From the IMG/VR virus record IMGVR_UViG_3300047356_000517, positions 1 through 25,037 of that record: a stretch of DNA of 25,037 nt; one strand, written 5' to 3'. This document shows, piece after piece, positions 10,354 through 12,096 of this stretch; the first letter of the stretch is position 1, and the number at the start of each line of letters is the position of its first letter. The notes under the pieces were generated by a model. That model was not told the DNA's origin. It did no database searches and saw only the letters and a list, made by a program, of their open reading frames with translations. Origin of the DNA: a virus. A program made the translations under genes and the position numbers.

Positions 10354-12096
10354 ATGAAAAATAAAATAATAAAAACCCTAGCGGCCGTGTTCATCACGGC
10401 TTTTTTTACGACTACCGCATACTCTGAGCCTTTAGAGGTTTGGATATATGCAGAACGCACACCATCATACATATCATCGGTTACATATTCGCAAGACATT
10501 GTAACACCCGAAGATATTAATGATGTTGCTGCCTTAGATATTCTAACAAGCGGTCCAAAAGGACAAGTTAGTTCGTTGTTTATCAGAGGAGCAGATAGTG
10601 ATCAAAACTTGATAGCATTAAATGGCATTCCCATTAAAGACCATTCAAGTCCAACTGGAACAGATGATATTGGCCAACATAGTTTTACTGGTATACAACA
10701 GATAGAAATTATTAAAGGTCCGATGAGCAGTTTGTATGGAGCAAACGCTGCCGGAGGCGTTATTAACTTAGTTTCAGATATATCACATCAATCATATATT
10801 AAAGCAGATGTTGGATCTAATAATGCAATTACAAAGGAGGTACAAATATCAAATACAATTGATAGACTTGCATATACTTTTAATTTAGATCAAGAAAACA
10901 CTGACGGAATAAGTGTATATCCAGATGGTGACGAAACTGACCCTTATGACAGTACTAATATGAATTTTAATGTTTTATATTACGGCGATAATATAAATTA
11001 TAGATTAAACTACATAGACGAATTAAACAATTCTAACCTTGACGGTATGGGCGATACTAAAGACTACACAGGAAAATGGCATTGGACTAATACACAGTTT
11101 GATGTAAACACCAACAATACTAGATTTGTTCTTAATAATTCAAAACATAAAAGAACATATACTAAAGACGGATTACTTGAAGGAAACTACGATAGTAATA
11201 CTAATACTATACATCTTTCACATCTGTTGCAATTTAATCAAACTGATGTTACTCTTGGAACAGAACACGAAAAAGTTGATGCTAAATTTTTAACAAATAT
11301 TAGAGGTCCTTGGCCTTATACAAGTAATGTTAATAAAAGTAGATCGACACACGGTATTTTTGTAAACACTAGTATTGAAACCGATAATAATGCTGTAATA
11401 TCATCTGGTATAAGATATGATGATATTGAAGGCTTTGGCGACAAGCTAACAGGCAGATACGGATTATTTAAAAATGGTTACAGAGGAAGTGTATCATTAG
11501 GTTATCGTGTGCCAACACTATATGAAATGTATGGCGAAGACAATTATGGATTTACAGGTAATCCAGACTTAAAAGAAGAAGACACTGTAAGTTTAGAAAT
11601 TGGTTATGCTAATGCATTTTTTGATACAGCAGTATTTGTAACACAAGAAAACAATGCAATTATTTACAACGGAACATATGTAAATGATTCAGATAACTCT
11701 TATACTAAGGGTGTAGAAACAAAATTTACATACGATATTAATGATTATTTCATTACAGCTAACACAGCTATTATCGATGCTAAAACGTCTGAAGGCAAGC
11801 AAAAGCTAAGACGTCCAAAATACACTAGTAACGTAGAGATAAGTAAACTTGTAAACAATGTATTGTATAGCACTAAAGCAAACTACTATGGCAAGCACAA
11901 AGACATAGATAGTAAAACATTCCAAACTGTTGACAAAGGATCAACAATTTTGTATGATGCTGAATTAAAGTATTTAAAAGACAACATTGAAATATTTACA
12001 GGGCTATATAATATTAGTGATACAAAATATGAAAGACCCGACGGTTATAGTCAATTAGGACGAAACTGGAAAGCAGGGTTTAAGGTATACTTTTAA
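10354..12096 (+). CDS. TonB-dependent outer-membrane receptor, BtuB-like
   Basis: The 580-aa protein starts with a signal peptide (about residues 1-24: MKNKIIK, then a hydrophobic stretch ending AYS). A TonB-box-like LEVWIYAER follows, then a plug domain with SSLFIRGADSDQNLIALNG, IQQIEIIKGPMSSLYGANAAGGVINL, and a long series of amphipathic beta strands ending in the aromatic residue (KVYF) used by the BAM machinery. Length is close to BtuB (about 614 aa), which imports vitamin B12; the family also takes up iron chelates and sugars. Such a receptor in a phage is very unusual: it could feed the infected cell or mask or replace a phage receptor. Its codon use is AT-rich like its neighbours. A terminator hairpin lies in its signal-peptide codons. 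The ligand is unknown. Confidence 0.88.
   Translation: MKNKIIKTLAAVFITAFFTTTAYSEPLEVWIYAERTPSYISSVTYSQDIVTPEDINDVAALDILTSGPKGQVSSLFIRGADSDQNLIALNGIPIKDHSSPTGTDDIGQHSFTGIQQIEIIKGPMSSLYGANAAGGVINLVSDISHQSYIKADVGSNNAITKEVQISNTIDRLAYTFNLDQENTDGISVYPDGDETDPYDSTNMNFNVLYYGDNINYRLNYIDELNNSNLDGMGDTKDYTGKWHWTNTQFDVNTNNTRFVLNNSKHKRTYTKDGLLEGNYDSNTNTIHLSHLLQFNQTDVTLGTEHEKVDAKFLTNIRGPWPYTSNVNKSRSTHGIFVNTSIETDNNAVISSGIRYDDIEGFGDKLTGRYGLFKNGYRGSVSLGYRVPTLYEMYGEDNYGFTGNPDLKEEDTVSLEIGYANAFFDTAVFVTQENNAIIYNGTYVNDSDNSYTKGVETKFTYDINDYFITANTAIIDAKTSEGKQKLRRPKYTSNVEISKLVNNVLYSTKANYYGKHKDIDSKTFQTVDKGSTILYDAELKYLKDNIEIFTGLYNISDTKYERPDGYSQLGRNWKAGFKVYF
10384..10407 (+). terminator. Intrinsic terminator inside the receptor's signal-peptide codons
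   Basis: GCCGTG (10384-10389), loop TTCAT, CACGGC (10395-10400) and seven T residues (10401-10407) form a textbook Rho-independent terminator. It spans codons 11-18 of the receptor gene and lies at about +31 to +54 of the leaderless transcript. It also lies 66 nt past the stop of the upstream virion gene, so it may end that transcript as well. Confidence 0.75.

Follow-up and report, generated by a model that had tools for sequence, protein, structure and literature searches.

A putative transcription attenuator within the signal-peptide codons of a phage TonB-dependent receptor gene

Why does a phage gene for a nutrient receptor carry what looks like a complete transcription terminator in its first codons, directly behind its promoter? 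The gene lies in IMG/VR virus record IMGVR_UViG_3300047356_000517, whose 25,037 bases were analyzed as a whole (the window) and include phage replication genes for a DnaB-like helicase, a primase, and a protein of the DNA polymerase family. Its open reading frame (ORF; 10354..12096, plus strand) encodes 580 amino acids with a signal-peptide-like N terminus, assigned by eye and with a crude screen, and contains both the plug and the beta-barrel domains that define a TonB-dependent receptor (Pfam Plug, E = 1.7e-14, and TonB_dep_Rec_b-barrel, E = 2.8e-18, both above cutoffs). By sequence profile, its best match in the PDB is BtuB (E = 4.2e-33). The gene upstream (9551..10318, plus strand) probably encodes a virion structural protein (phrog_14467, 7.6e-09; the match to BppU_N, at 20 bits, is under the cutoff of 23.1), and its stop codon directly adjoins the −35 box of the receptor promoter. 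Downstream lies a called ORF for a hydrophobic protein of 41 amino acids (12097..12222, plus strand), which had no Pfam match at an E value of 0.01. The same contig also carries a putative vitamin uptake transporter of the Vut_1 family (4883-5491).

Read directly from the plus strand, the hairpin consists of a 5′ arm, GCCGTG (10384..10389, codons 11 and 12), a 5-nt loop, TTCAT (10390..10394), and a 3′ arm, CACGGC (10395..10400), followed at once by seven T residues (10401..10407) formed by the last base of codon 16 and the two Phe codons 17 and 18. It begins 30 nt past the ATG at 10354, and a G-T pair (10383/10401) extends its 6-bp GC stem to 7 bp. A GC-rich stem that runs directly into a T-tract is the sequence hallmark of an intrinsic (Rho-independent) terminator, and an RNA 3′ end is expected within the T-tract. 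An earlier note on this locus had described a full terminator inside the signal-peptide codons, and coordinates and sequence are exactly as described there. RNAfold predicted this hairpin alone for positions 10354-10409 (−11.5 kcal/mol, z = −2.04), and 11 of 200 shuffled sequences were as stable. No other terminator-like site listed in the window has as many G-C pairs, and at no other does the stem run straight into six or more T residues; a minus-strand site (14513-14493) has six T residues two bases after a stem with three G-C pairs. Terminator-like sites as a whole were no commoner in the window than in shuffles (7 found versus 6.3, and 4 versus 7.2), so one sequence alone is weak evidence. 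By itself, the window's hairpin is only moderately unusual; it is the comparative evidence described below, from relatives, other ORFs, and recoding trials, that decides against chance.

A sigma-70-type promoter (10319..10347, plus strand) matching the consensus at 11 of 12 positions precedes the gene, with TTGACA at 10319-10324, a 17-nt spacer and TATACT at 10342-10347. Only 6 nt separate the −10 box from the start codon (10354..10356), whose A is the seventh base past the box. From this spacing, the natural reading is a leaderless transcript whose first base is the A of the ATG. The same arrangement was found in all 20 relatives that carry the terminator, with promoters of 10 to 12 consensus matches, a 17-nt spacer and 5 to 7 nt between the −10 box and the ATG. 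A regular-expression search of the 20 nt upstream of the ATG found no Shine-Dalgarno (SD)-like motif in the 23 sequences tested. The leaderless start proposed earlier is therefore borne out in its geometry, a near-perfect sigma-70 promoter 6 nt before the ATG. Later start codons were considered and rejected: by eye, the next in-frame ATG of the window lies far downstream, and initiation at the ATG of codon 17 in sequences of the L033 type would leave little of the signal peptide.

Three genes of the window (756-793, 10319-10356, and 12231-12268) share TTGACA, a 17-nt spacer, TATA(A/C)T, 6 nt and an ATG. Besides the receptor gene, these are the ORF at 791-1993 (promoter to ATG, 756..793, plus strand) and the primase gene with its ATG at 12266 (12231..12268, plus strand); both match the receptor's geometry with zero mismatches, and neither has a terminator at its start, so that they serve as internal controls. 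Across loci of both clades described below, the promoter-to-ATG spacing was exactly 6 nt in 17 of 18 distinct ORFs and 7 nt in one, counting ORFs of at least 60 amino acids that start at most 16 nt from a TTGACA-17-TATA(A/C)T promoter; these ORFs represent just four genes, the receptor contributing 11 and the primase 5, and are not independent. In nine virus records, the promoter-ATG pattern gave 19 matches, compared with 2 for a reversed-pattern control, and 7 of the 9 records were matched. The shared geometry suggests a class of leaderless genes in this phage group.

Relatives of the receptor were collected in a first scan (13 loci) and a profile scan (47 loci). The phylogeny comprised 39 of 49 loci (the 47, the window, and one locus from a metagenome-assembled genome [MAG]), after exclusion of eight duplicates with the same protein (L026, L028, L029, L032, L050, and L060 to L062) and two fragments (L070 and L072). 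The first 60 alignment columns were left out of this quick tree, which has SH-aLRT support only and for which the program issued a warning that long branches meet. Two further profile scans (11 and 46 loci) returned only contigs already present in the 47-locus scan; the 46-locus scan shares its search pattern with the latter and is no proof of completeness. Genome contigs yielded three loci, two of them partial and one full length (L073, included in the tree). This 36%-identity relative lies on an 8.5-kb contig labeled as a Flavobacteriaceae MAG (PACV01000025.1) but possibly of phage origin and assigned to the MAG in binning. The phages collection gave six records of 23 to 35% identity and no close relative. 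In all three loci tested, a gene for a DUF6580 membrane protein lies by the receptor gene, after it in L051 (4716-5198) and before it in L066 (2355-2894) and L068 (2395-2841); its product is perhaps an inner-membrane partner of the uptake system.

Scored as a hairpin of at least five pairs followed by at least six T residues, the terminator is present in the same codons of 20 of the 39 receptor genes, with T-tracts of six or seven. It occurs in all 13 members of the window's clade and in 7 of the 10 members of a sister clade at about 42 to 45% protein identity, a conservation that points to the attenuator proposed in the earlier note rather than to an accident. That note had named, as evidence against its proposal, relatives in which the amino acids persist but the stem or the T-tract does not. 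None appeared in the window's clade, and the three sister-clade genes without the terminator (L047 to L049) lack the matching amino acids as well. On the tree, the distribution takes two changes, interpreted here as a single gain ahead of the split between the clades and a loss in L047 to L049; two separate gains are possible in view of the differing codon phase of the stems. The terminator also tracks the promoter: it was found in 20 of the 25 genes with a promoter directly in front, the exceptions being L047 to L049, L069, and L071, versus none of the 14 others, which have no promoter with at least 10 of 12 matches in front.

The 20 genes, carried by aquatic phages, contain 14 different hairpin sequences and 18 different stretches of the first 75 nt. 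In the window's clade, the stems include GCCGTG/CACGGC, GTCGCAAC/GTTGCGGC, GCTGCAC/GTGC(G/A)GC, and GCAGCG/CGCTGC, among others, and in the sister clade, CACGGT/(G/A)CCGTG and CACAGC/GCTGTG. Since the outer stem bases fall into another codon phase in one clade than in the other, what has been kept is the structure and not one particular string of codons. Predicted stem energies range from −7.3 to −13.1 kcal/mol, those of the sister clade being modest (−7.3 to −7.8 kcal/mol). In that clade, all 42 of the 42 alignment cells examined are paired, with one pair substituted at both positions (A-U for G-C) and another occurring as U-G, U-A, or C-G, and sliding the partner strand lowers pairing to 17 to 50%. 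The covariation among these seven close sequences was not significant (44 of 500 column shuffles reached its score), and it is limited in the window's clade, where exchanging arms between sequences breaks few pairs.

Synonymous recoding addressed the same codons, with 20,000 trials for each of 15 sequences and the window's codon usage applied to all. An equally strong terminator arose in 0 to 2.2% of trials per sequence: 2 recodings were equal or better for the window, 45 for L027, 50 for L038, 25 for L040, 0 for L042 and L045, 1 for L064, and 446 for L035, the highest of the 15 counts. At the hairpin, synonymous codons were identical in 190 of 204 comparisons among the seven sister-clade genes, versus 124.6 expected from the rest of the gene, and 4 of 567 windows of equal size scored as high; such comparisons within one clade are not independent. 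The excess was mild in the window's subgroup (18 of 21 identical versus 14.0; 17 of 569 windows as high) and in a third subgroup (111 of 144 versus 81.4; 98 of 568 windows as high). The pairs L051-L042 and L051-L046 each had 7 of 9 identical, a level within the ordinary range (reached by 118 of 532 and 129 of 534 windows).

The combination is specific to this gene. Among 387 distinct ORFs of at least 100 amino acids from the window and the collected loci, 20 had a terminator within the first 75 nt, and all 20 were this receptor (this set includes L026 and leaves out the cut-off L041 and thus differs from the 20 of the tree); none of the 387 had such a terminator further inside. A crude screen found 41 other signal-peptide-like ORFs, none of them with a terminator near its start. 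A wider viral scan for promoter, ATG, and T7 (at least 120 stretches), taken together with the earlier loci, gave at least 98 distinct places, at least 14 of them with a hairpin; among the matches listed, 6 hairpin places have an ORF of at least 100 amino acids, in each case this receptor, and 8 have ORFs of 1 to 69 amino acids.

We therefore considered how such an element could work. The reading that we favor, at odds slightly better than even (about 0.5), is a promoter-proximal transcription attenuator built into the structural gene, with a race between ribosome and polymerase most likely setting the escape. Lying inside the gene itself, the terminator does come after the promoter and ahead of most of the coding sequence. 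RNA polymerase would start at the A of the ATG and make about 46 to 54 nt, whereupon the hairpin would fold and, in most rounds, a short leaderless RNA would be released at the T-tract. A minority of polymerases would pass and produce the full receptor mRNA. Escape would most likely depend on whether a ribosome engaged at the 5′-terminal AUG has advanced a few codons, far enough to mask the 5′ arm and let transcription continue. Alternatives for this step are an invariable leak, the supply of nucleotides or an elongation rate sensitive to it, and an antitermination factor of the phage. Sequence comparison establishes the promoter geometry, the hairpin, the T-tract, their conservation, and their restriction to this gene; termination itself, its action on the receptor's own message, and the control of escape by translation are what we infer.

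Folding was predicted to look for an alternative hairpin of the antiterminator type. The A/U-rich 5′ end of the RNA (10354..10376, plus strand) is predicted to be unstructured on its own, the minimum free energy (MFE) of nt +1 to +23 being 0.0 in all 15 terminator-bearing sequences folded, the window included. The hairpin lies within the MFE fold of nt +1 to +60 in 19 of 20 sequences, L051 folding otherwise, and several sister-clade sequences and L038 add outer pairs to it, MFE folding being a weak test of such an alternative. None of the 20 sequences has an in-frame stop codon in its first 54 nt. Cut short at the T-tract, the transcript would thus be leaderless and lack a stop codon altogether.

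The first ribosome may plausibly relieve termination. Tight coupling is described as letting the ribosome prevent the hairpins of intrinsic terminators from forming (PMC5021804), and terminators in the first 100 bp of an ORF are reported to be capable of working efficiently in E. coli (PMC4824070). In the same report, translation cut the efficiency of a terminator 30 bp past the AUG by only about 10%, so that escape through the ribosome may be small or need another factor.

Termination might instead be aimed at a different transcript. As the earlier note's alternative had it, the hairpin would end transcripts from the upstream virion gene. In the form considered here, read-through RNA would be untranslated at an SD-less internal AUG and terminate, whereas RNA begun at the AUG would be translated and spared; with the promoter directly adjoining the upstream stop codon, the hairpin would have its place within the following gene. 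In six sequences of the window's clade examined, the upstream ORF ends 35 to 43 nt before the ATG, and none of 11 sequences of that clade has a terminator of its own between −150 and −28, even when a tract of four T residues is accepted. In the window, moreover, no other site has a stem directly followed by six T residues. Upstream read-through could thus be a target in this clade, as a second role of the hairpin. The sister clade weakens the alternative. There, the upstream neighbor is not a virion gene but a conserved structured RNA before the promoter, whose terminal hairpin abuts the −35 box. This upstream hairpin satisfies the same terminator definition in 4 of the 7 terminator-bearing genes (L045, L046, L064, and L051) and has only four T residues in the other 3 (L042 to L044), and all seven keep the embedded terminator. 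As a terminator already stands upstream in four genes, the embedded one is probably directed at the receptor transcript itself, those four offering the clearest case. The 14 genes without a promoter of their own, which have no terminator, likewise speak against read-through as the sole target, and we consider this explanation unlikely.

The structured RNA of the sister clade (L046 2730-2935 and the aligned stretch of L042 to L045, L051, and L064) has a promoter-like sequence before it, by eye. In L046, it matches the Rfam manA RNA at 49.9 bits, under the gathering score of 55.2 (E = 9.4e-12). A tRNA, suspected from the conserved noncoding stretch, was not found by ARAGORN in 13 loci, and a known riboswitch was rejected for the window, which had no Rfam match up to E = 1. 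A glutamine riboswitch (RF01739) scoring above the gathering score lies about 500 to 570 nt upstream of the receptor gene in 4 of 9 loci scanned (L042, L046, L051, and L064). Downstream of the receptor gene, freshwater-2 RNA (RF02980) was found in L046 (5248-5322) and L051 (5222-5301).

The promoter-terminator pair might also exist for the sake of its short product, a stable trans-acting RNA of about 46 to 54 nt that works by base-pairing or engages ribosomes as a stop-less leaderless message, with the gene expressed by leak. Promoter-ATG-terminator units with tiny ORFs do occur elsewhere: two other phage contigs, L016 (3858-3953) and L024 (8222-8317), carry the same stretch with a perfect promoter, an ATG, a strong terminator, and an ORF of 22 codons, a candidate phage small RNA. 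The lack of an early stop codon in the 20 genes fits such a product, as does the conservation of part of the unpaired stretch in the sister clade (38 of 53 columns invariant in all), and attenuator RNAs can act in trans, as described for rnTrpL (PMC7298713). Between the clades, however, the unpaired part shares, by eye, little beyond the AUG and A-richness, and we regard a trans-acting element of this kind as improbable.

A fixed throttle, in which a moderate terminator lowers the receptor dose with no regulation, strikes us as hardly any better a candidate and, if anything, a shade poorer. The predicted stem energies are indeed moderate, and the E. coli measurements quoted above suggest that a terminator at this distance is largely insensitive to translation (PMC4824070). 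Yet a weaker promoter would have the same effect more cheaply, and the promoters here match the consensus at 10 to 12 of 12 positions. Finally, although recoding of the same amino acids quite often yields a terminator-like structure of 5 bp or more in part of the sequences (30% of recodings for the window, 52% for L038, and 32% for both L040 and L051), a by-product of Ala, Val, and Phe signal-peptide codons in an AT-rich genome is very improbable, given how seldom recoding reached the observed strength, the absence of terminators from the other signal-peptide-like ORFs and the persistence of stems with different letters.

Among known systems, the attenuator that we favor would work most like that of pyrBI, without the separate leader peptide. 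There, likewise, an intrinsic terminator lies in translated codons soon after a start, and the proximity of the ribosome would decide, but in pyrBI those codons belong to a leader peptide gene of its own, 135 bp long and provided with pause sites (PMC4824070), whereas the receptor's terminator lies in the structural gene itself, 30 nt into a presumably leaderless RNA. The trpL element of Sinorhizobium meliloti (rnTrpL/peTrpL) is described as a transcript that begins with its ATG and whose terminated RNA is a short leaderless message, as would hold for the receptor; its ORF stands apart, is 14 codons long and contains Trp control codons, and its RNA structures are mutually exclusive (PMC7298713). 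In our gene, a separate leader-peptide ORF is absent and the translated codons are the receptor's own, so a classical trp-type attenuator was rejected and the element is not a member of the trp-type family. With the pil1 leader of Streptococcus gallolyticus, among the systems compared the closest case of a terminator opened by a ribosome, the common point would be a ribosome-induced destabilization of a premature stem-loop terminator; the account of pil1 describes a separate leader peptide whose length varies by repeats (PMC3894217), in contrast to the structural gene's own codons here.

RNA ends near gene starts or within reading frames, some of them intrinsic, have been mapped in E. coli, including an internal end in aceK (score, 5.9) and one in ispU with a 6-bp stem and eight U residues; the main text of that survey does not use the word leaderless, and its passages on such ends mention no conserved terminator in signal-peptide codons (PMC7815308). 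RNA regulation in marine phages is also represented by the glutamine riboswitch of phage Melnitz, of the same family as the one upstream of the receptor in four sister-clade loci, but it is described as a ligand-binding element and not as a translated terminator (PMC9004378). Among the matches listed in our literature search, outside which most subscription journals lie, no paper dealt with such a terminator in a phage receptor gene.

Carried further, the attenuator reading leads to a tentative picture of a self-attenuated gene that needs no leader peptide. Its first 18 codons might serve at once as 5′-terminal ribosome entry site, signal peptide and terminator, such that only RNAs caught at once by a ribosome would be completed, and the aborted, stop-less leaderless RNA may act on ribosomes or other targets during infection. 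Attenuators are usually sought in leader regions; the putative one studied here is written into the signal peptide of the protein that it would regulate and is kept in two clades at about 42 to 45% protein identity. Being so short, it would be a natural system for testing how quickly ribosomes can engage a leaderless RNA and rescue it from termination, a question hard to address with SD-led genes, and it suggests that the first 60 nt of leaderless genes be scanned for hidden terminators. For the phages themselves, our results suggest that a nutrient-receptor gene is kept in check by its carrier, a point relevant to the question of why BtuB-like receptors occur in phages at all.
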